From positions 1 through 33,622 of the forward strand of contig PWNJ01000259.1 of assembly GCA_003558985.1 (NCBI GenBank): DNA of 33,622 nucleotides, in the 5' to 3' direction. The DNA is from a candidate division CSSED10-310 bacterium (lineage in GTDB: Bacteria > CSSED10-310). The notes under the pieces are model-generated. The model had not been told where the DNA came from. It saw only the letters and a program-made list of their open reading frames with translations, and did no database searches. The number at the start of each line of letters is the position of its first letter. The first letter of the stretch is position 1. The position numbers and the translations under genes are program-made. Shown piece after piece: positions 1,687 through 33,622 of this stretch.

Positions 1687-4449
1687 TTAATCCGTGAGCG
1701 CGTTGCGTGTAGATGTAATAGCATTCACATTGTCATTGTGTATTATCAATTGAGACGAGTCTGCTTGGCAAGGTGATACTGGTTGTGAAATGACCGGATC
1801 TTTTATCACAACAAGACGTGTTTGAGTTGAAAGGTTTAGAGCAGATACCAGATAATTCGCAACCTGATTTGTCTCTTGATATCTAACCGGAACATACACA
1901 AAATTTGAAAAACCGAAATGGGATGGCCCTACAGCCCCGGACGCCTCCTCCTTGTAATCCGGATGAAAATCTATTGGATCTTTCATATTGTAATGCGCAA
2001 TGTAAGGTTCACCCATTAGAGTAAGGCCAGCAATTGCCAGAACCGGATAATACTGATCCTGATCGTTGATATTTGCATCATAAACGACTGCATCGACAAT
2101 GCTGCTGAAAAGCGCCTGGAATGTCTCAGATTCTGTTGGTGATATTGGATGAAAATACTGGCCCAGGTCTTGATTTTTCAAGACCACAAAGTGACCATTT
2201 TCCGCGACCACAATCAAATCTGATGGATAAGACGGAGAGTAGGAATAGACGACGCCGGTTACCAGTTTTGATGCGTTAAACTGAATATCGGGGATATATT
2301 CCGGCTGAATGGTGATATTCATAGGATTGCCCCATTTAATATCCGGGTCATCCATGTTTTTGAATATTTTGACTTTTGTATGACCATTATTGTGATTTTT
2401 AAGCAACACAGCCAGTTCGCCTTTATTGTTACCGGTAAAATCGGCGATGGTCATATCAAGCACTCTGTAACCGTGAGTCAGATTGTATTGCGGCATTGGT
2501 ATAAGGTCCTCACCGCCGACTGGTGGTGTCGGCATTAAATCATCGCAGGGATTATTCAGGGCCAAGACGTGCAGATAGAATTGCGAATAATCAGAATTAC
2601 GTAACGCAACCACGACTTCATCGAAATGAGACGGCACGCCGCCGAATTCCCCGAGGTTTCCGGCCGCCAAATGGGTTATAGTAGCGCCAATTGGTCCCAC
2701 AAAAACTTCAGCTTGTTTTTCCATGACATCAATTCCGGTTACCGGGGGGTTTTGGTAATAGAATACATTTGATGCTCCGGTTGAAGCGGATGTAGCAATC
2801 ACCAGGTCCTTGTGTGAGGAGTGTGGATTACACAGATATGCGGAGGTCATGGCTTCAATCGAATCATGCGTCCATTCATAGTCAGCAGCATCCATATTCC
2901 AGCAGACCTGTGGAGTATCGTGCAGATGATGGTCAATGGATCGTCCGTAAAACGAGGTGTTTCCACCGATGAAAATCTGTCCGTCATCCGGATGAAAAAC
3001 GGGGTGGGCTGTTGGTGTTGGTGTAATCGTCGGTGTGGGTTCATCCGGATCGTGTGTGGGTGTTACGGTTGGAATGTAGGGTGTCGGGGATCCCGGAGTC
3101 GGAGTATATGTAACCGCCGGTGTTGGCGTCACAGTTGCGGTTGGTATTGGTGTAATCAAATCCATATCGAATTCCGGCGATCCTTCGTACATCAGGTTTC
3201 GCGGGTTGATCTCAAGTGAAATTTCGAAATCCTGATAATAGTAATAGACAGGATTATTCGGATTACTCAGATCCGATCGATCCAGATTGGGTCGGTCTGT
3301 TGTCGGTTCGCTGGACTCTATCAGTATATTGACACCAATTCTTCGAATGAACTGGTCCAGGCGATTTTCACCTGGAATACCATTGCCGTTTTCGTCGCCA
3401 AATTCGCTTTCGCCGGCGCGGCCGGTAATGTAACTCATGTAGTTCAGGTTCACTTCGGCCCAGTATGGATTGTTTAACATGTTTCGTATTTCATGCGGAT
3501 CCAGGACACCGTTTCTGGCGCCGTCGGGTCCGGGTCCGGCGGGTTGTATAAGTGGAACCCGGCTGTCTGGCAGGTTGCCCCAGTCGCCCCATAGTTTCAG
3601 GGGTTCCCCGGGCCAGTCAGGGTCACCCGGATCCGGTAATCCCTGAGTTCTCCAGAAATGACCCCAGTAGGTAAACAAAACCGGCGGATATTCATCATTC
3701 GGATACTTGAATCGTTCGACGGATTCCGGTGTAACACCGCCCTGTGGATTGTAAAACATACCTCTGACATTAAATGCGACCGGATGGACGCCGGAATGTT
3801 GATTGGCATAGCCGGTTTCTGTTTTGACGCATCCCCACCATTCCTTGAAAAGCCAGAAATCATTTGGGTTTTGAGTGCGTTGCCGTGTGCCTTCAAACAG
3901 CAAATTGTCTTCCAGATCAAGATTGTTGATGACACCATCAGAATTGGAATCCAGCGAATATCGAACAATTTCAGCGCCTATATTGCGATATCCGTAGGCA
4001 GCATCCTGATCCCAGCCTGTATATCGCATATCGTCCGGTATCGCCGGATCATACAGGAAATACAATGGGCGAAAGGGTGAGCCCGGCCCGAACGACATGG
4101 AAAGCGTTGGATCAAGACTTCCGTAACGTCTGTCAGGATTGCGTATTTCCCGGTCCAGGTCGGCGACAAAAATCAGATCAAACATACCGGCTCTTAAAAT
4201 CTGCGGTTGCTCGTGTTCCGCATCACGTCCGACACCAATCTGATATAAATCCTTGCGCAGCGCATTCACCGCTGACTGAGCATTATCTGTCAGCGCCAGC
4301 TCAAGTTCAGCATCTGACAAATCGCGTCTGGTCTGCAACAGAAATGTATAAATAATTCCCATCACGACGCTGAAAATAACCATTGAGATCAGCATTTCGA
4401 TTAATGAGAATCCCTTTGAGCGGTTTTTTAACTTAACAATCATGTTCAT
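1687..4449 (-). CDS. Prepilin-type protein with very large Thr/Pro-linked C-terminal domain
   Basis: The N-terminus has a class III prepilin signal: basic KLKNRSKG, cleavage before Phe, then FSLIEMLISMVIFSV with Glu at position +5 of the mature protein, followed by a hydrophobic helix. The next 400 residues resemble PilW-like minor pilins. A linker rich in TPTPT/VTPTPA follows at about residues 433-485. The last 430 residues contain repeated strands such as DLVIATSAS, GELAVLLKN and DLIVVAENG, like FG-GAP or VCBS propeller repeats. Usual minor pilins are 150-350 residues, so 920 is exceptional. I chose ATG 4449 over TTG 4455 because AAAGGG lies 8 bases upstream of it. It follows the other prepilin gene after 27 bases and probably forms an operon with it. 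The role is inferred as a surface-exposed pseudopilus or pilus-tip component. Confidence 0.88.
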   Translation of the reverse strand: MNMIVKLKNRSKGFSLIEMLISMVIFSVVMGIIYTFLLQTRRDLSDAELELALTDNAQSAVNALRKDLYQIGVGRDAEHEQPQILRAGMFDLIFVADLDREIRNPDRRYGSLDPTLSMSFGPGSPFRPLYFLYDPAIPDDMRYTGWDQDAAYGYRNIGAEIVRYSLDSNSDGVINNLDLEDNLLFEGTRQRTQNPNDFWLFKEWWGCVKTETGYANQHSGVHPVAFNVRGMFYNPQGGVTPESVERFKYPNDEYPPVLFTYWGHFWRTQGLPDPGDPDWPGEPLKLWGDWGNLPDSRVPLIQPAGPGPDGARNGVLDPHEIRNMLNNPYWAEVNLNYMSYITGRAGESEFGDENGNGIPGENRLDQFIRRIGVNILIESSEPTTDRPNLDRSDLSNPNNPVYYYYQDFEISLEINPRNLMYEGSPEFDMDLITPIPTATVTPTPAVTYTPTPGSPTPYIPTVTPTHDPDEPTPTITPTPTAHPVFHPDDGQIFIGGNTSFYGRSIDHHLHDTPQVCWNMDAADYEWTHDSIEAMTSAYLCNPHSSHKDLVIATSASTGASNVFYYQNPPVTGIDVMEKQAEVFVGPIGATITHLAAGNLGEFGGVPSHFDEVVVALRNSDYSQFYLHVLALNNPCDDLMPTPPVGGEDLIPMPQYNLTHGYRVLDMTIADFTGNNKGELAVLLKNHNNGHTKVKIFKNMDDPDIKWGNPMNITIQPEYIPDIQFNASKLVTGVVYSYSPSYPSDLIVVAENGHFVVLKNQDLGQYFHPISPTESETFQALFSSIVDAVVYDANINDQDQYYPVLAIAGLTLMGEPYIAHYNMKDPIDFHPDYKEEASGAVGPSHFGFSNFVYVPVRYQETNQVANYLVSALNLSTQTRLVVIKDPVISQPVSPCQADSSQLIIHNDNVNAITSTRNALTD

Positions 4450-4476
4450 TCCCAAAACCCTTTCAAAAGAAGCTGA

Positions 4477-10270: not shown

Positions 10271-13200
10271 TCAGGTATCAAATCGAATCCACTCATCATC
10301 GTTACAATTGTTAAAACGTTTCAAAAGAGCTCGGAATTTTTTGCGAACATCCCTGGCTGTCATTGTGCAGCCGTTGAATTCACAAAACATATCTTCAAAC
10401 GAAACAACCATATCCGGAGTTTTAATGTCAGCCAGCCGGTTGATCATACCAATCATATCAGCCGTTAAAAGCGTGTCCAGTGAACTGACAAGGGTTGAAT
10501 GCCGGGTATCAAGAGACATAATCTCGTTTAATGCCTGCACCTGTTGCTCAGGAATTTTCATGTCATGTGCAACTGTTTCAGGAGTCAGAAGAAATGCCTG
10601 AGTCTGCAGAACTGAAAAAGCCCGGAAAATTCGTTTTTGAAATCTTTCTTTCCAGGTTTCAGCAGATACGGTTGTGAATACTGTTCCCAACTTGAATCCG
10701 CAACTGCAGACCGGAAAGATATCCAGAGCTGTTTCGGGATTGTGATGACATATCAGGTGGTTTATCTGTTTGATTGATTCATTGTAGTCGTGTAATTCTG
10801 CAATATGCTTTAAAAAGTGAATATCGTTCATGCGCTGCAGTACCCGATATTCCACTGAGGATGTTATTTTTCCGGAATCGAAATGTTTTAATTTATTCGA
10901 CTGGGTTTCATGTTCTTTCAGATATTGCTGTTTGTATTTTACTCTGAACGTGTCAAATTGCTTCAAAACAACTGCCAGTTCGTTTTCAATCACGATATCA
11001 TCAGTTAATCCGACATTGTTTGAAAGCAGTTCAAACAGACTTTTCAAAACACTGTATTGCGGGTCGTCCGGTATCATTGATTGAAGTTTTGAAATATATG
11101 ACCGGACGGATGTCAGGGACTCATAACCCTTATCAACAAACCCTTTCATTTGTTTCATAGCGCTAAACAACGCATCCGGGTTTTCAATCGCGTCAAATTG
11201 ATGCAATACCGAATGCCAGCGCTGTATTGTATTCAGGTTCTCCTGTTCCAATGTCAGAACAAGGGATTCAGCATGTTTTAATATTCTGTACGTGTCTGTC
11301 AGGTTATTGGCACATGAACTAAACTGATTGTTCCAGGTTGTTACCAACTCACAAAACTGCTCAGCAGTATTTTTCCAGGATTGAAACAGGGGCTGAATTT
11401 TTTTCCATAAAACATCCTGGATATCCAGATCAATATCGTTCAAAGCACGATTGTAAACCAGTTTATACAACCGAAAAAAGGCGGGTCGGTATTGATCGGA
11501 AATTAACTCACCGCGCTGCAGGGTATCGATTTTTCCTGTGAGGGGCAGGTTCAAATCGTACAGATTCAGTATTTTGCCTGATTTTAAGGGTGTAATATAT
11601 CCTTTTCGCACAAGAGTCAGCAGAGCCAGTTCGAAGACGGGGCGACTCATTCCAAGGGGTGGTTTGGCAGAATTCATCAAAGCTCTGCCTGCCGAGACGG
11701 AGTCATTTTGTGTTTTTCCCGGCAGTTGTTCCATAACAGATTTGGCTGCTTTGGATTTTGTCGGATTTCCGGCAAGATGCCAAACACCGCCTTTTTTGGT
11801 GGCGAGCCCGAGTGGACGGGCAATTTTTTCTATTGCATCCAGTGTTAAATCATCTTTTCCCGGGATCAGGTGGATGCTGTTTCCCGGCCGAATAAACTTG
11901 TCCAGCAGTAATTCCTGAATGATTTTACTTTGGCAATCGATTTCCGGTGCGACGGTGATATGTTCGGGAAAGCGGTTATTGAGCGCCGGTTTCAGAACAA
12001 GTCCCAGCCATTTGTCAAAATGATCGCATTGTGTGTGATCAGGCATTTTGTACTGACCTGTTGACAGAATCAGAGTTCCTTCAAGATACGCTTTTTGAAG
12101 TTCTTCAGAAGCTGCGGCAATACTGTTGTCAAGACGTATATTCAGTTTGTCCAGAATCGGAGTTGCATCGTCATTGTCTGGATCACTTAACACATCACTT
12201 ATCATAATTTTACATGCCTGGATTTCCAGCATTGCATCATTAAATGATTTTGAATCTGGAATTTTCGGAAGAATAAATCCTGCGCCTGATACTGTTATTT
12301 GTGATTCAACAGTCAGAAATTTTTGTATTATCAATAGGGTATTCGGGTTTGTTTCAGGAAAAACCGGTATAAGTGCGAAATCGATTTTTCCGGTTGACAG
12401 CGTTTTTTTCAGTTCTTGTAAAAAGCCGCATTCCAGTTCAGATGAGCTGGCCACTTTAACTGCAATCCGTCGTCTGGTGTTTTGCCAGATAACGGAATCT
12501 CTGATGGACACCTTGTCAAGGCATGTTGCCAGCGGGAGTATTCCGGTACTCATGGATTGTATCAGCAGTGTAAAGGTTGCTTTATCATTCGGTGCAAGAT
12601 TTGATTTGATACGATCAAGCCTGTTATCTATGCCAGATATCGGATCACCATCAACGGATATTTGATACACATCATCCAGAACATGTTTTCCGGGAATACG
12701 CTTGAGGTGTCCGACTTTTTGATACAGCTTTCGCAGAATGTGCTCCTCAAACCATTCATAATTGGCTTCATCCGTAACTATCCCGGTTTCAAAAACCCGA
12801 TATAAAATCATATTGGCCAATTCTTTAACGGTTCGTTTATGGTTCAGGGGAGTGATAGCAAGCAGGATCAGTATTTTTATTGTTTTAAGCGCAGTAACGC
12901 AGTCATTTTGGTTTTCGAACCGGTATTGTGCCACAGGCAGAAAATGATTTTTGTACAGATGGTAATATACAAAGTGTTTGTCAGATTCTGCCAGTTGATC
13001 CTGAAAATGGTCGAAAATCACATCGGGTGTCAGCAGAGTATGACAGGGTTGGTCCAGGATGCCAGTTATCAAGGTTTCAGGCTTTCCGCGAATGCGTGTG
13101 GACAGGAAATCGACCAGCCCCCGATGCCTGCTGAACAGATCAATATTCAAATTCAATATTTCCAGGGTTTCAGGATGGATGGGATATAACGCGATAAAAT

Positions 13201-14290
13201 CAGCTTTTTTTATAGGAATACCGGCGAATGCATTATGCAGGTCATTATAAATCTGTTCGATGCATTTAATTGAATGATCATCATTACGCGGCAGTAATCT
13301 TTCGGAAATAAACTGCTGTAAATGACCGGTGCTCAATTTCATATGCTGATACCGCTCTTTGATTTTTCTGAATACGTTCGTGGAAATACTCTGATTCATA
13401 TCCAAAGATTCCTGAACGGCAGCAATTACCCATACCGGATGTGATTTAACAGACTCACCCAGAAACTGTAAAAACCGTGTATCTTCATGAAGCATTTGGA
13501 CAACAGGTTTGGATTTTAGAAATTCTGATAGTTCGTCGATGATGAAAAATACGCCTTCCCAGCCCCCGGCGGTGATGCTTTGAATCAGTTCATTCAGCAA
13601 CTTTTTTCTGTCGGTATTGGACGCAACCGGTATTTTCAGTTTTGAATGTTCTGAGAACTGATTAATAATCGTATGAGCAGATGCAGGGTCATCCCGATGT
13701 ATTTGTTCCCATGTAATGTCACCAAAACGTTTATTGATATAATCCCGAAATTCTGTTTCGTGTTCTTTCAGGACGTATCGGTTAAACGTTTCTATTGTTC
13801 GCCGGGTTGATGACAGAGTTAATGGAATACCTGCTGTCGCTGCTGCATTTTCTGCGGATTCCAGGATAATTTCTTCCAGCGGCTTGTCTGCCGCATACTC
13901 AGTTAGCGGAACCAGAACCGGAAGATATTTGTGATATCGTTCAGCTTTATTTGAATATAATGTGCCGAATTTGGATTCCAGAGCTTTTTGGGCCCATATA
14001 TATCGCGCAGTCAGGCCGAGAATTCCCAGCAAATGGCTTTTGCCGGCGCCATAATTGCCGATAACGAAAAAACCTTGTCCTTGTTTGCGTTGCAGATATC
14101 CAAATACAATAGTTAAAATGCTTCGGATATCATCCGTAATGACAAAGGAATGACCCAGGTTTTCAAGTGCAACACGATTCTGGGGATCATCAGGATCCAA
14201 ATCCCGCACTTCTGCAAGATCGATAACCGTCTCAACTTCGGGAACATGAATCAAGTCTCCAATCCGAAGATCAGGAAGGTTATCCAGCAT
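10271..14290 (-). CDS. Giant BrxC/PglY/DUF6079-like P-loop ATPase
   Basis: This is a 1339-residue protein with a RecA/AAA-like NTPase near the N-terminus: Walker A GNYGAGKS (residues 78-85), Walker B VFFIIDELSEF (247-257) with Asp252-Glu253, and a sensor-like WVIAAVQE (287-294). The opening (RIGDLIHVPEVETVIDLAE, then SFVITDDI before the P-loop) is the layout I recall for BrxC of BREX, PglY, and DUF6079 proteins. Long helical regions follow, and near residues 1178-1197 there is a possible zinc site (CHH then CSCG). No BREX partners (pglX methylase, pglZ phosphatase, brxA/B/L) are nearby, so it is not a standard BREX locus. ATG 14290 has CGGAG seven bases upstream. The gene follows a membrane-anchored protein by 17 bases, suggesting they work together. 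Its role is unknown. Confidence 0.88.
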   Translation of the reverse strand: MLDNLPDLRIGDLIHVPEVETVIDLAEVRDLDPDDPQNRVALENLGHSFVITDDIRSILTIVFGYLQRKQGQGFFVIGNYGAGKSHLLGILGLTARYIWAQKALESKFGTLYSNKAERYHKYLPVLVPLTEYAADKPLEEIILESAENAAATAGIPLTLSSTRRTIETFNRYVLKEHETEFRDYINKRFGDITWEQIHRDDPASAHTIINQFSEHSKLKIPVASNTDRKKLLNELIQSITAGGWEGVFFIIDELSEFLKSKPVVQMLHEDTRFLQFLGESVKSHPVWVIAAVQESLDMNQSISTNVFRKIKERYQHMKLSTGHLQQFISERLLPRNDDHSIKCIEQIYNDLHNAFAGIPIKKADFIALYPIHPETLEILNLNIDLFSRHRGLVDFLSTRIRGKPETLITGILDQPCHTLLTPDVIFDHFQDQLAESDKHFVYYHLYKNHFLPVAQYRFENQNDCVTALKTIKILILLAITPLNHKRTVKELANMILYRVFETGIVTDEANYEWFEEHILRKLYQKVGHLKRIPGKHVLDDVYQISVDGDPISGIDNRLDRIKSNLAPNDKATFTLLIQSMSTGILPLATCLDKVSIRDSVIWQNTRRRIAVKVASSSELECGFLQELKKTLSTGKIDFALIPVFPETNPNTLLIIQKFLTVESQITVSGAGFILPKIPDSKSFNDAMLEIQACKIMISDVLSDPDNDDATPILDKLNIRLDNSIAAASEELQKAYLEGTLILSTGQYKMPDHTQCDHFDKWLGLVLKPALNNRFPEHITVAPEIDCQSKIIQELLLDKFIRPGNSIHLIPGKDDLTLDAIEKIARPLGLATKKGGVWHLAGNPTKSKAAKSVMEQLPGKTQNDSVSAGRALMNSAKPPLGMSRPVFELALLTLVRKGYITPLKSGKILNLYDLNLPLTGKIDTLQRGELISDQYRPAFFRLYKLVYNRALNDIDLDIQDVLWKKIQPLFQSWKNTAEQFCELVTTWNNQFSSCANNLTDTYRILKHAESLVLTLEQENLNTIQRWHSVLHQFDAIENPDALFSAMKQMKGFVDKGYESLTSVRSYISKLQSMIPDDPQYSVLKSLFELLSNNVGLTDDIVIENELAVVLKQFDTFRVKYKQQYLKEHETQSNKLKHFDSGKITSSVEYRVLQRMNDIHFLKHIAELHDYNESIKQINHLICHHNPETALDIFPVCSCGFKLGTVFTTVSAETWKERFQKRIFRAFSVLQTQAFLLTPETVAHDMKIPEQQVQALNEIMSLDTRHSTLVSSLDTLLTADMIGMINRLADIKTPDMVVSFEDMFCEFNGCTMTARDVRKKFRALLKRFNNCNDDEWIRFDT

Positions 14291-29378: not shown

Positions 29379-30641
29379 ATGAAGAAATGGGTTGCAATCA
29401 TTATTTTTGTACTATTGATTGTGATTATACGAAGCCAAAGCTTTACTCCAACCGGACAAGCTGAAGAGTTGACGATGGTCATGATTCGAGAGAATATCCA
29501 GCCATTAAGGCCCGGCATACCGGAACCCGGTAACAGCCGTGTGATTGGGGATGCTTTCAGAAGAGGTGATACGCTTGGGTCAATTCTGGGACGTAATGGA
29601 GTATCTGCATCCGATGTGCATGCCATTGCCACGGTTCTGGATGATGTATTGTCGATACGAAGACTCAGACTGGGCGCTGAAGTTACGGTATACAAAGATG
29701 CGAAAACAGACGAACTGACGGAAATACGAATTATTAACAGAGCGGACGAAGCGGTCAGGATAGAGCGAAATGATGATCATCAATGGGTGGTTTATCCGTA
29801 TGATCTGCATTTGTTTGACCGGATTAACCGTGGTACAGGAATTATTCAGGGTTCATTGTGGAATGCTGCAACGCGTCAGGGCGTGCCGCCGGAAACGATT
29901 CTGGACATGGCGGAACTATTCGGGTGGCAGGTTGATTTCACTTCGGGTTTACGACAGGGTGACAGTTTTGATTTGTTCTACAGCACCCGGGTCATGAAGG
30001 ATGTCGGTGATGTACCGGGCAAAATCACAGCGGCACGATTTACCAACAGAGGTAATGATTTTTATGCATTCGGATTCGCACTTCCGGATGGGTCGGTGGA
30101 GTATTATGATGAAGAAGGAAACTCTATGCGACGAACCTTTCTAAAAACTCCTCTGGAATACAGACGGATCAGTTCCGGGTTTACTCATCGACGTTTTCAT
30201 CCAATACTGAAAGAATATCGGCCTCATTTGGGTATAGACTATGCCGCCCCTCGAGGCACTCCGGTTAGCGCTCTGGGGGACGGTGTTGTGATTTTCAGAG
30301 GTTGGCGAGGCGGTTTCGGCAATTATGTCGAGATTCAGCATGGAGATGCCTATGTGACTTGTTACGGTCACCTGGACAGATTTGGCGAAGGAATACGCAA
30401 GGGTGTCCAGGTGCGACAGGGGCAGGTTATCGGTTATGTTGGTTCCACAGGCCTTGCAACCGGGCCTCATCTGGATTTTCGAGTACGGTACAGAGGCACA
30501 TACATTAATCCTGATACTGTAGAGTCCGAACCGGCTGAGCCCGTTCCGGATGATTTTCGGGATGAGTTTTTTGATATGGTTACAGAATGGAAGAACCTGT
30601 TTGCTGAGATAGAAGAAGGAGAAGACGATGTCATTGGTTAA
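29379..30641 (+). CDS. M23 (LytM) family envelope metallopeptidase with variant zinc motif
   Basis: M23 peptidases cut peptidoglycan cross-bridges or act as activators of amidases. A single N-terminal membrane helix (residues 4-17) is followed by an OapA/LysM-like region (RRGDTLGSILGRNGVS, about 61-76) and a linking domain. The peptidase domain includes HLGIDYAAPRGTPV (His283, Asp287), GNYVEIQHG and the catalytic YGHL (His331). The last motif, normally H-x-H, is HLD (364-366), so Asp replaces the second His, a zinc ligand in LytM. This may be a ligand variant or a non-catalytic regulator. GGGGAG lies seven bases before the ATG. The gene overlaps the first proteasome-like gene by 14 bases. An acidic tail ends the protein. 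Confidence 0.93.
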   Translation: MKKWVAIIIFVLLIVIIRSQSFTPTGQAEELTMVMIRENIQPLRPGIPEPGNSRVIGDAFRRGDTLGSILGRNGVSASDVHAIATVLDDVLSIRRLRLGAEVTVYKDAKTDELTEIRIINRADEAVRIERNDDHQWVVYPYDLHLFDRINRGTGIIQGSLWNAATRQGVPPETILDMAELFGWQVDFTSGLRQGDSFDLFYSTRVMKDVGDVPGKITAARFTNRGNDFYAFGFALPDGSVEYYDEEGNSMRRTFLKTPLEYRRISSGFTHRRFHPILKEYRPHLGIDYAAPRGTPVSALGDGVVIFRGWRGGFGNYVEIQHGDAYVTCYGHLDRFGEGIRKGVQVRQGQVIGYVGSTGLATGPHLDFRVRYRGTYINPDTVESEPAEPVPDDFRDEFFDMVTEWKNLFAEIEEGEDDVIG

Positions 30642-31707
30642 TTTTCTGAAATTCAATAATGACGCTGGAGCGATAATTTCTGATGAAGAGTACTGGAATG
30701 TGTTTTTTCGTAAGCGCATGCATGGCGACAATCTGCACCGTTTATTGTCACCGGAGCAGTCTGAAACACTTGGGATTCAGGTTGTTTACGGTGGTGTAGG
30801 ATATCCGGCAGTGCATCGGGATGTGATTGAAAATACCCGTCGGATTATCCAGGATACAATTGACGAGAAGGGGGTTTCGTCTATTCAGCGTGTTAAGGAT
30901 GTAGCGCGGATTGCTTTTGACTGTTTACAGATAGCCATTCGTCGTCGCATTGATCAAAAACTGAAGTTTTATTATGGTTTCCAAACACAGGATTTAAATG
31001 CCTGCCGATTCAGGGTTGATGATGAAACGTATCCGATTGAGTCAACACTGGTTATGGACAATGCCCGAAAATTGGCTTCTCGCGAAACTCAGGACACTTT
31101 GCTGAAGGCGGCTATGGATGCCAAAGCGGCTGTTTTCGGATACGATACAGATGGAATGACAGGATATTATCTGTCCGGAGAAAACTCGATTATGGGATAT
31201 GTTCATGAAGGTTTTGAGGCGATTGGAACAGGGAAGTATGCGTCAGGACTGGTGTTTGGCCAGGATTTCAAGGCAAAGACACTCAAGATGAGACAGAACG
31301 GGTATGAGCCGGCGGAAGGACTGTATGCGCTTATTGATTCCGCTTTTTTAGCTGGAGAACATTTCAAGGAAGTTGGAGGTAACTACAACATTGTTATCGT
31401 GAACCGGGCTGCTTCCAAAGCGACGGATCGATACAGACAAATATTTGATGATAATGCCAGACTGGCCACTGAAATTGTCAGAGCTGTTCGCAGCGGGTAT
31501 TTGAGGAAAGAACAGGCAGTACACCTTATTGATGAAATGGTATTTCAGAATAAATCATTACAGGCAACTGAAAAGAAACTGTTTCAATTATCTGAAAACA
31601 GCGACGCACTGATGTTTATTTTACGTGGATACAAGCAGAATGAGGTGGTGGAAATGTTTGCTGACATCAAGACATCCAGGAGTACCGGAAAAGGAGCTCA
31701 ATCATGA
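30628..31707 (+). CDS. Divergent proteasome-like Ntn-hydrolase-fold subunit, probably inactive
   Basis: I know no named family for this 359-residue protein. Residues 2-22 (SLVNFLKFNNDAGAIISDEE) have the length and pattern of the first proteasome beta strands, with Asp19 where the catalytic Asp17 sits. Residues 50-60 (IQVVYGGVGYP) resemble the turn before the first helix, which runs 61-78. Residues 170-210 read FGYDTDGMTGYYL, then YVHEGFEAIGTGKYASG, very close to the D-x-D-G...A-I-G-S-G-x-x-Y-A segment of HslV and 20S beta subunits. The N-terminal residue after Met is Ser, not Thr, and no Lys is found at the position of Lys33, so it may be inactive. About 90 extra residues lie before the second half, and the C-terminus is paralogous to the next protein. 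AAGGAG lies six bases before the ATG. Confidence 0.85.
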   Translation: MSLVNFLKFNNDAGAIISDEEYWNVFFRKRMHGDNLHRLLSPEQSETLGIQVVYGGVGYPAVHRDVIENTRRIIQDTIDEKGVSSIQRVKDVARIAFDCLQIAIRRRIDQKLKFYYGFQTQDLNACRFRVDDETYPIESTLVMDNARKLASRETQDTLLKAAMDAKAAVFGYDTDGMTGYYLSGENSIMGYVHEGFEAIGTGKYASGLVFGQDFKAKTLKMRQNGYEPAEGLYALIDSAFLAGEHFKEVGGNYNIVIVNRAASKATDRYRQIFDDNARLATEIVRAVRSGYLRKEQAVHLIDEMVFQNKSLQATEKKLFQLSENSDALMFILRGYKQNEVVEMFADIKTSRSTGKGAQS

Positions 31708-32744
31708 CATCAATTAATGCGTTACGACTGGATTTTCATTCCGGATTAATGCTGTGTGATGAAGCGCGTTACTGGAATCCGGAATGGATGATATTCTATA
31801 CTCCAGAGAAAATACGACGAGTGACCAATGCAAAAATTATCGCTGATACGGTCATGTTTATGGGACAGACTGGAACCAGTTCTATTGGTGATGAGTGGAT
31901 TATGGAAATTGAACGCGCTGTTACCGGGCTGTATCGGAAAATGGTGGATCAAAACAAGGTTTGTCGTGACAATCCGTTGGGATTGAATGAAGTTGTCAAG
32001 ACCGCGTTTGACACTATTATTCGTATCAAACAAATGCATATTGATGATTTTCTTGTTGGCAAATTCGGTTTTAAGGCCACGGATTTAATTCGCGGTTATT
32101 CGTTGACCAAAGACAATCAAAAAGAGGCAATCAGTAATCAGGATCAGATCAAGGCGGCGTTGGACTATATGACATTTGCAAAAAATCCGGATGAGGTAAA
32201 AGGCATATTCGGGAATTCCCAGGTTCTGGCGGGTTATAACCGGAAAGATGGTTTCAGAATGTATTACATGACGGAACGCTGGCCTGTTTGTGAAGAGGTG
32301 CATGAGATATTTATCGCTCAGGGATCCGGACGAGACACATGTGATTTGAACTATGCCCGGTTTGCCGACAGATGCCGTTTGGCTGAGCGGCGTGGGGAAC
32401 AACTGATACCCAGGCAAAAGGGTTTGTACGCATTATTGAAAGGACTTCACCAGGCCTTAAATCAGACAGCGGGCATAGGAGGATATCCCAAGATAATTTA
32501 TGTTAATGGCCATGAAAAAGATTCATCCGAATGGGTTTCAGAAATATCAGACTGCCGTTCAAAATTGGCGTTGGAAATCACCGGAGCTTCAGTTGATGGG
32601 TTTATCAGGCAGGAAGACGCCGAACTGCTGATTGAAGACCTTGTTTTTCAGGGAGTTGATATTTTCGAAATGAATGAGCAGTTTATGAAGCTTGCCGCAG
32701 ACCGGAAACGGCTGGAGAAATATTTGCGACGTTATTCTGTGTAA
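31704..32744 (+). CDS. Divergent proteasome-like Ntn-hydrolase subunit with Thr, Asp and Lys triad
   Basis: This 346-residue protein is a paralogue of the preceding one and overlaps it by ATGA. Its first residues, MTSINALRLDFHSGLMLCDEAR, closely follow the pattern of Anbu and HslV-type beta subunits. Removing Met exposes Thr2; Asp19 and Lys36 (in TPEKIRRV) stand where the proteasome triad Thr1-Asp17-Lys33 is expected. TVMFMGQTGTSSIGDEW (49-65) corresponds to the G-x-G turn before helix 1, and VHEIFIAQGSGRDT (199-212) to the GSG motif. Shared blocks with the paralogue are GLYAL, IGG...YVN and GFIRQEDAELLIEDLVFQ. HslV is about 175 residues, so this form is twice the size. The ribosome site AAGGAG is strong. 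No HslU, ClpX or Mpa-type unfoldase is next to it. Confidence 0.87.
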   Translation: MTSINALRLDFHSGLMLCDEARYWNPEWMIFYTPEKIRRVTNAKIIADTVMFMGQTGTSSIGDEWIMEIERAVTGLYRKMVDQNKVCRDNPLGLNEVVKTAFDTIIRIKQMHIDDFLVGKFGFKATDLIRGYSLTKDNQKEAISNQDQIKAALDYMTFAKNPDEVKGIFGNSQVLAGYNRKDGFRMYYMTERWPVCEEVHEIFIAQGSGRDTCDLNYARFADRCRLAERRGEQLIPRQKGLYALLKGLHQALNQTAGIGGYPKIIYVNGHEKDSSEWVSEISDCRSKLALEITGASVDGFIRQEDAELLIEDLVFQGVDIFEMNEQFMKLAADRKRLEKYLRRYSV

Positions 32745-32755
32745 AAGAATGACGT

Positions 32756-32792
32756 AAAAAAAGCGGCTGGTTACTAACCAGCCGCTTTTTGC
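32756..32792. terminator. Strong bidirectional terminator
   Basis: A perfect stem of 12 or more bases, AAGCGGCTGGTT (32761-32772) with AACCAGCCGCTT (32776-32787) around ACT, is flanked by five A and five T. It serves both the proteasome-like operon (+) and the converging cohesin-like gene (-). Confidence 0.93.
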
Positions 32793-32803: not shown

Positions 32804-33622
32804 TTATTGATCGGTATATCCGAACACAACATATCCGAAATCACCAAACAGATTGGTCATATCGGGTGTCAGCATAGCCGCATAAAATTCCAGACCGGTC
32901 ACGTGACCTCCAACAGTTGGCCATGTGAACGGTTCCAGACCGTAGAATGTCGTCAGGCCAGGTTCGAAATCCATCATCATCAGGTCAAATTCCATTTCCC
33001 ATGATGGCCAGAACCAGAATTCGCCATACACACCCAGCAGAACAGCGGTGGGCACATTATAGATAACTGCTTCCACGCAGATGTGGCATCTGAGCCAGAA
33101 CTCGTCACCGGCGCGATACAGATCATCCTGTGACAGTTCCAGTTGAGCGCCGAACCAGTCGCATTCTTCAGGAGGAGTCGGTGTTGGTGTGGGTTCTTCA
33201 GGTTGCGTTGGGGTAGGTGTTGGTTCTTCAGGTTGTGTTGGAGTAGGTGTTGGAGTGAATGTTGGTGGAATGGTAGTTGGTGTATGGGTTGGTGTACTGG
33301 TTGGAGGTAGTGGAGTATCTGTGGGTTCTGGTGTTGGGGTCGGGTCAGGCGGACAGATGAAAGTGAACATACCATTGATGATGTCAAAGCCGGCGATATC
33401 ATCGCGGAGATTATCCGGAATCAGTTCGCTGGTATCGCCTTCATCACAGTCGTTACAAGTGATATTGAACACAAGAATCGCCAGGACACCTTCGCTGCCG
33501 GCAGGAATTTCATTCGGTGGAAGCGAGAAACCGGCTACTGTGATAACACCGGGTTCCGCTTCGTTGGCGCCGAACATGGTCCAGCCCGGATCCAGATCGC
33601 CTGCGATGCCTTCAACAAAATC
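32804..33622 (-). CDS. Exported cohesin-like protein with Thr/Pro linker, C-terminal part (5' truncated by window edge)
   Basis: The frame is open from the window end, so the ATG at 33577 is internal. The first about 95 residues (GDLDPGWTMFGAN, ITVAGFSLPPNEIPAGSEGVLAILVFNITC, then GFDIINGMFTF) resemble the second half of a type I cohesin-like beta-sandwich. A linker of about 60 residues, mostly TPTPTP with PEE breaks, follows. The final about 120 residues form a separate domain, strand-rich and aromatic (AGDEFWLRCHICVEAVIYNVPTA, then GEFWFWPSWEMEFD). The ending GDFGYVVFGYTDQ is typical of beta-sandwich tails that I have seen at the C-terminus of exported proteins but cannot name. The similarity of linker type to that in the giant prepilin suggests a common surface-protein design. 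No anchor is visible. Confidence 0.82.
   Translation of the reverse strand, partial: DFVEGIAGDLDPGWTMFGANEAEPGVITVAGFSLPPNEIPAGSEGVLAILVFNITCNDCDEGDTSELIPDNLRDDIAGFDIINGMFTFICPPDPTPTPEPTDTPLPPTSTPTHTPTTIPPTFTPTPTPTQPEEPTPTPTQPEEPTPTPTPPEECDWFGAQLELSQDDLYRAGDEFWLRCHICVEAVIYNVPTAVLLGVYGEFWFWPSWEMEFDLMMMDFEPGLTTFYGLEPFTWPTVGGHVTGLEFYAAMLTPDMTNLFGDFGYVVFGYTDQ
33192..33251 (-). repeat. Tandem 30-base repeat in the Thr/Pro linker
   Basis: Two nearly identical 30-base units (33192-33221 and 33222-33251, two differences) encode EEPTPTPTQP-type decapeptides. A partial third unit lies at about 33164-33191. It is a coding minisatellite that could vary in number between strains. Confidence 0.85.

Follow-up and report, generated by a model that had tools for sequence, protein, structure and literature searches.

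To our knowledge, the 20S core is the only characterised proteasome-type enzyme whose subunits divide into inactive and active ones. Its alpha and beta subunits (archaea and Actinobacteria, PF00227), stacked in a seven-fold alpha7-beta7-beta7-alpha7 barrel, are paralogues of one fold. Only one of them carries the Thr-Asp-Lys triad; its inactive counterpart has a gating and organising role. HslV (about 175 amino acids, PF00227) is homomeric, is encoded beside hslU and starts with Met-Thr, and Anbu is a single homomeric protein encoded in an operon with transglutaminase, ATP-grasp and Alpha-E genes (PMC5666114). Connectase, which is monomeric and archaeal, has the same fold and triad without a propeptide and without helices H1/H2. 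In addition, Fuchs et al. 2021 list 22 uncharacterised proteasome homologues, and their main text contains no active/inactive gene pair apart from 20S (PMC8665760). Here we describe two overlapping genes, A and B, in a 33,622-nucleotide (nt) stretch of DNA from a candidate division CSSED10-310 bacterium (GenBank assembly GCA_003558985.1, contig PWNJ01000259.1, positions 1 to 33,622; hereafter the window). Their products are predicted to share the proteasome fold, with the catalytic residues kept in B and lost in A, and probably form an inactive/active pair of their own.

Results

Genes A (30628 to 31707, 359 amino acids) and B (31704 to 32744, 346 amino acids) are the last genes of the window's operon; these and all further coordinates refer to the forward strand unless stated otherwise. 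The stop codon of A and the start codon of B share an ATGA (31704 to 31707, spacing -4 nt), through which translation of the two genes is likely coupled. A preliminary description of this sequence had reported the two reading frames with their lengths and motifs, and these are as it gave them: B starts MTSINALRLD and continues to GLMLCDEAR, with Thr2, Asp19 and Lys36, and A starts MSLVNFL, has Asn at the position of the Lys and contains AIGTGKYASG. The C-terminal block described there as paralogous is indeed shared, but the paralogy spans the full length of both proteins (24% identity over 364 columns, BLASTP E=8e-18), and comparison of the two family profiles with each other gave E=4.5e-78 over 344 columns.

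We assembled sets of 39 distinct B and 35 A proteins, drawn from CSSED10-310 and from sporadic members of other phyla. The first scan of the collection relied on a pattern containing MT[SV][IV]NA, and about 22 of the 39 B proteins came from whole-genome searches in which Thr2 was not required; B proteins found without the pattern have identical catalytic residues. More specifically, Thr2 (codon 31707 to 31709), Asp19 (31758 to 31760, the position of proteasome Asp17), Lys36 (31809 to 31811, the Lys33 position), Gly57 (31872 to 31874) and Gly207-Ser208-Gly209 (32322 to 32330, the GSG loop of the proteasome catalytic site) are invariant in B (39/39). Gly57 stands at the end of strand S5 (residues 49 to 56) and is a candidate, by its position, for the oxyanion residue Gly47. 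Counted where the region concerned is present, the A proteins retain the Asp (32/32) and are consistently degraded elsewhere. Position 2 is Ala in 19, Ser in 7 and Gly in 6 of them and never Thr; the Lys is found in 0/32, its place being taken by Asn (16), His (6), Ser (5), Cys (2), Phe, Tyr or Ala (one each); and the loop Ser is kept in 1/34. The window's A itself has Ser2 (30631 to 30633) in place of Thr1, Asn35 (30730 to 30732) in place of the catalytic Lys, and Gly200-Thr201-Gly202 (31225 to 31233) as its degraded GSG loop.

This pattern is far beyond chance, and the conservation of Thr2, Asp19 and Lys36 among B homologues bears out the earlier suggestion of an active/inactive pair. Met directly precedes the Thr in all 39 B proteins, which have no propeptide, and ordinary Met removal by Met aminopeptidase exposes a Thr that follows Met; Thr2 is thus the predicted N-terminal nucleophile of B. 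Having lost both the Lys and the loop Ser, the window's A is not likely to use its Ser2 as a nucleophile. Judged from these residues, B appears to carry a competent Thr hydrolase site and A to be its dead partner. Of the features by which Fuchs et al. 2021 define a proteasome-like site, namely the triad together with Gly47, B has the full set, with equivalence assigned by position, and A does not.

AlphaFold2 (AF2) models were built from 19 B and 17 A homologues and reached a predicted local distance difference test score (pLDDT) of 85.0 and a predicted template modelling score (pTM) of 0.84 for B, and 85.1 and 0.82 for A. Foldseek searches against the PDB at E<=1e-3 returned 660 matches for B and 1121 for A. 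Among the matches listed, all were 20S or Anbu subunits with probability 1.00 for both proteins, and the target-normalised TM-scores were about 0.5 to 0.8. Both A and B are therefore predicted to adopt the proteasome-type N-terminal nucleophile (Ntn) hydrolase fold with its four-layer core, in line with the kinship first proposed from short motifs.

The models also locate the additional sequence that had been anticipated as inserted domains. In B, helix H2 and strand S6 are separated by an inserted segment (residues 122 to 170, 32067 to 32213) at the pore-loop site, and A has its own at the same place (residues 117 to 165, 30976 to 31122); in each protein this segment amounts to about 49 residues that are extra relative to a 20S beta subunit. 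A four-helix extension follows at the C-terminus, at residues 284 to 341 of B (32553 to 32726) and 274 to 331 of A, and corresponds to the paralogous block mentioned above; together with a low-confidence tail (residues 336 to 359), the region in A occupies 31447 to 31704. Insertion and extension account for the doubled length relative to HslV. In the B model, helices H1/H2 are present (residues 59 to 82 and 94 to 121), and the helices at 215 to 229 and 237 to 254 are joined by a short loop, without an H3/H4 insertion. In the A model, strand S1 starts as early as residue 3, and the N-terminal helix typical of alpha subunits is absent.

Sequence by itself is only suggestive of proteasome kinship. 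No Pfam, NCBIfam, defence-library (PADLOC) or PHROGs model gave a usable match to A or B, and no member of either family reached the PF00227 cut-off, the best B member scoring E=0.041. A weak PADLOC match to 'Orf5' spans 77 residues and was not used, and single-sequence PDB searches with A and B yielded chance matches only. With family profiles, proteasome subunits ranked first in the PDB for both B (E=0.012) and A (E=0.052), although both values are weak. When the B profile was run against open reading frames of proteasome-bearing loci, the two true bacterial 20S beta subunits ranked first, with their GSG loops aligned to that of B. Profile comparison with a shallow HslV set gave no match, and homology to the proteasome accordingly rests on the fold and weak profile evidence. 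No relative of A or B was found on viral contigs, and the viral structure library gave a single match at E<=1e-3, a 289-residue phage protein with a low TM-score.

B genes were found in 7 of the 386 genomes of a broad sample, all 7 of them CSSED10-310, and additionally in scattered genomes labelled Wallbacteria, Schekmanbacteria, Planctomycetota, Bacteroidota/Ignavibacteria, Eremiobacterota and Bacillota, and a single genome can hold as many as five of them. For 36 of 39 B genes, the gene immediately upstream is A. The exceptions are the second B of an A-B-B' cluster (L004), a B preceded by a transposase gene (L044) and a solitary basal B (L106). The spacing between A and B is -4 nt in 16 and -1 nt in 4 of the 35 measured pairs (20/35 together). 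Such short overlaps are enriched in genes for subunits of heteromeric complexes and are typical of translational coupling (PMC10666635).

A tree of 71 sequences separates the A proteins, all in one clade, from the B proteins, all in the other (support 100/99), and the two subtrees are mirrored. Distances between partners correlate with r=0.82, a value reached by 0/2000 shuffles; limiting the partner swaps to paralogous pairs inside the same genome also left the observed correlation unreached (0/2000). The two clades, the mirrored subtrees and the partner-matched distances show that A and B arose by a single duplication before their spread across phyla and that each A stayed with its B, the two being inherited together as matched partners. 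The insertion and the C-terminal helices are common to A and B, so the simplest view is that their duplication was distinct from the one behind 20S alpha and beta. Two side observations concern individual members. The solitary B-type gene of L106 (genome G387), which has no A beside it and is basal in the B clade, may preserve the ancestral condition before pairing. The B of L033/L041 (DYIT01, titled Candidatus Kuenenia) is 54% identical to the window's B, and that genome may have been misnamed or mis-binned and not be a true Kuenenia.

By the features tested, A and B are not members of the 20S, HslV or Anbu families. The 20S alpha/beta pair is the nearest functional analogy; compared with it, A lacks the alpha-type helix, B lacks a propeptide, both carry the insertion and the C-terminal extension, and neither matches PF00227. 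The proteasomal ATPase (PF16450) was found in none of 13 carrier genomes. Like HslV, B combines the Met-Thr start with the Thr/Asp/Lys triad and the GSG loop, whereas A and B are about 350 residues long and paired, with hslU on another contig or locus. Anbu structures (5nyw, 5nyg) are among the top structural matches, and Anbu, whose split ring is assembled by way of a long C-terminal helix, likewise has no propeptide and a C-terminal helical extension; of its operon partners, however, Alpha-E is present in 1/13 carrier genomes and ATP-grasp adjoins only some A-B pairs.

Discussion

The best reading of these data is that A and B form an obligate heteromer in which the site of B acts as a Thr protease or amidase. 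We think it quite probable that the two proteins are subunits of a heteromeric proteasome-type hydrolase, with the Thr site in B and A as a pseudo-enzyme partner, that originated in an independent duplication. On balance, we also lean towards regarding it as a second, independently evolved inactive A/active B machine of the proteasome type, so far undescribed, which is spread over several phyla of uncultured bacteria, reaches five B genes in a single genome and has an architecture unlike 20S, HslV or Anbu. The preliminary description went further in knowing of no comparable bacterial system: the bacterial 20S is itself an inactive/active (alpha/beta) pair, and the homologues of Fuchs et al. 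2021 could include A and B (PMC8665760).

In the mechanism we propose, Met removal would make Thr2 the N-terminal nucleophile of B with no propeptide needed, Asp19 and Lys36 would complete the triad, and Gly57 and the GSG loop would supply the oxyanion and loop environment. Coupled translation would provide A in roughly equal amounts, as a structural or gating partner comparable to alpha for beta in 20S. The shared pore-loop insertion and the C-terminal helices probably form subunit contacts or restrict access to the site, and for this reason a plain HslV-like homomeric double ring seems unlikely from the models; the assembly may consist of rings, of mixed (heteromeric) rings or of something smaller. 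For other homologues, it has been argued that an insertion at the pore-loop site impedes plain ring formation or provides a cap (PMC8665760). Several pairs in one genome would serve different substrates.

Some observations pull the other way. Co-inheritance in an operon can produce mirrored trees and adjacency without physical contact between the products, and B may act alone in places, as in L106 (basal in the B clade, no adjacent A) and L044 (a transposase gene at A's place). The flanks of the A-B pairs contain no conserved neighbour or ATPase that would point to a substrate. Residues 20 to 35, which connect S2 with S4 and lead up to Lys36, are of low confidence in both models.

Several other explanations deserve consideration. 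Conceivably, though we think it rather improbable, A/B is already among the 22 uncharacterised homologues that Fuchs et al. 2021 list, perhaps as a PHI, PMI or PHD type, so that only the active/inactive pairing would be new. These are likewise divergent proteasome-like proteins with insertions, the phyla in which they occur overlap with those of the A/B carriers, and the insertion site of PHI and PMI-3/4 is that of A/B, the insertion after H1/H2 that characterises PHI being present in our models; the comparison is with published descriptions. The H3/H4 insertion of PMI-2 to PMI-6 is nevertheless missing from both models, PHI is strongly connected to proteasome clusters whereas A/B match no Pfam model, and most carrier genomes, judging by their accession prefixes, appear later than that survey, which reported no gene context or co-occurrence suggesting function (PMC8665760). 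Nor is it likely that B is a specific ligase or small-molecule amidase instead of a protease. Connectase uses this triad for ligation (PMC8665760), one subtype (L054, L059) has its A-B pair flanked by an M20 peptidase gene and a circularly permuted ATP-grasp gene, and the Bacteroidota pair lies inside a kynurenine-type gene cluster. However, connectase is monomeric and lacks H1/H2, while B keeps both helices and a near-constant partner, and the neighbours vary by lineage, so none is a good guide to the activity of B.

If A and B acted separately, B would work as a homo-oligomeric protease in the manner of HslV, and A would be a pseudo-enzyme, regulatory or non-interacting, that operon inheritance keeps next to it. 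The two loci with B and no adjacent A agree with this, but adjacency is nearly universal, overlaps are short, and partners co-evolve specifically even where one genome holds several paralogous pairs, which makes it quite unlikely. We give still less credence to the idea that A-B is a new peptidase partner of the HslU ATPase in families that lost HslV. It is attractive for genomes G000-G003, which keep a full-length HslU and lack HslV and any PF00227 protein, and in which no proteasome-type peptidase other than A-B was found; their xerC-hslV-hslU locus has cleanly lost hslV, and in HslU the HslV-docking tail (...DLSRYIL) has given way to a conserved ...RKKxKVGF (KPGF in G003). Yet VGF belongs to the tripeptides by which Clp ATPases dock to ClpP (PMC8745299). 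As this tail coincides with ClpP in all these genomes, it suggests that HslU has been re-directed to ClpP, and we rejected HslU as the ATPase of A-B. Moreover, the unrelated, HslV-less G092 has an HslU with KVGF followed by a short extension and no A-B, and A-B co-occurs with HslVU in G005 and G388 and stands without any HslU found in G386 and G391.

Should A-B be a true heteromer, as we favour, the division of labour between inactive and active subunits would have evolved at least twice from the same fold, and a two-part protein-cutting machine would have arisen apart from the classical two-part proteasome. Such a heteromer would allow a natural comparison of what an inactive partner contributes, be it gating, assembly or specificity, in a small, testable system, and the multiple partner-matched pairs per genome are a ready set for studies of subunit specificity.

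Genomic context and additional observations

A search of the flanks for a conserved partner gene found none: each of the M23, M20, M29, Memo, polyprenyl synthase, ATP-grasp and kynurenine genes is confined to a single subtype. In the window, an M23 peptidase gene (29379 to 30641) lies upstream of A in the same direction as A and B, and its 3' end overlaps the start of A. Its orthologous neighbour is L031:3670-4950 (PF01551), and it was not found upstream of most other A-B pairs; it is probably on the same transcript as A-B and is not a conserved partner. Downstream of B lies a perfect 15-bp inverted repeat, AAAAAGCGGCTGGTT-ACT-AACCAGCCGCTTTTT (32758 to 32790, no strand assigned), which from its sequence is a probable bidirectional terminator. 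The terminator scanner did not report this repeat and gave other weak sites only.

Circularly permuted ATP-grasp genes are located downstream of some A-B pairs (L054:7123-8523, L059:4517-5917 and L060:8608-9975), and CSSED10-310 genomes hold several diverged copies each. In the Bacteroidota/Ignavibacteria loci (L047, L052, L056), A-B sits between genes for a putative cyclase (kynurenine formamidase family) and a kynureninase, with a flavin adenine dinucleotide (FAD) monooxygenase gene downstream.

The orphan HslU genes of G000-G003 are at G000:C124:15552-16916 (L112), L113, L114 and L115, with L116 and L152 as comparison loci. Among 85 HslU tails, 79 have the usual aromatic-hydrophobic end; the other six belong to G000-G003, G011 and G092, none of which has HslV beside HslU. 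The G011 HslU (L150), again one that lacks an HslV, ends in ...LERAKMMV, and its genome encodes a different PF00227 protein of 285 amino acids with an ADKI motif (L069).

Elsewhere in the window, a Pro/Thr-rich linker protein with TPTPTP repeats is encoded on the reverse strand at 32804 to 33622, convergent with B and open at the window end, and similar repeats occur at 1687 to 4455. A large protein of 1339 amino acids with a Walker A-like motif (GNYGAGKSHLL) is encoded on the reverse strand at 10271 to 14290.

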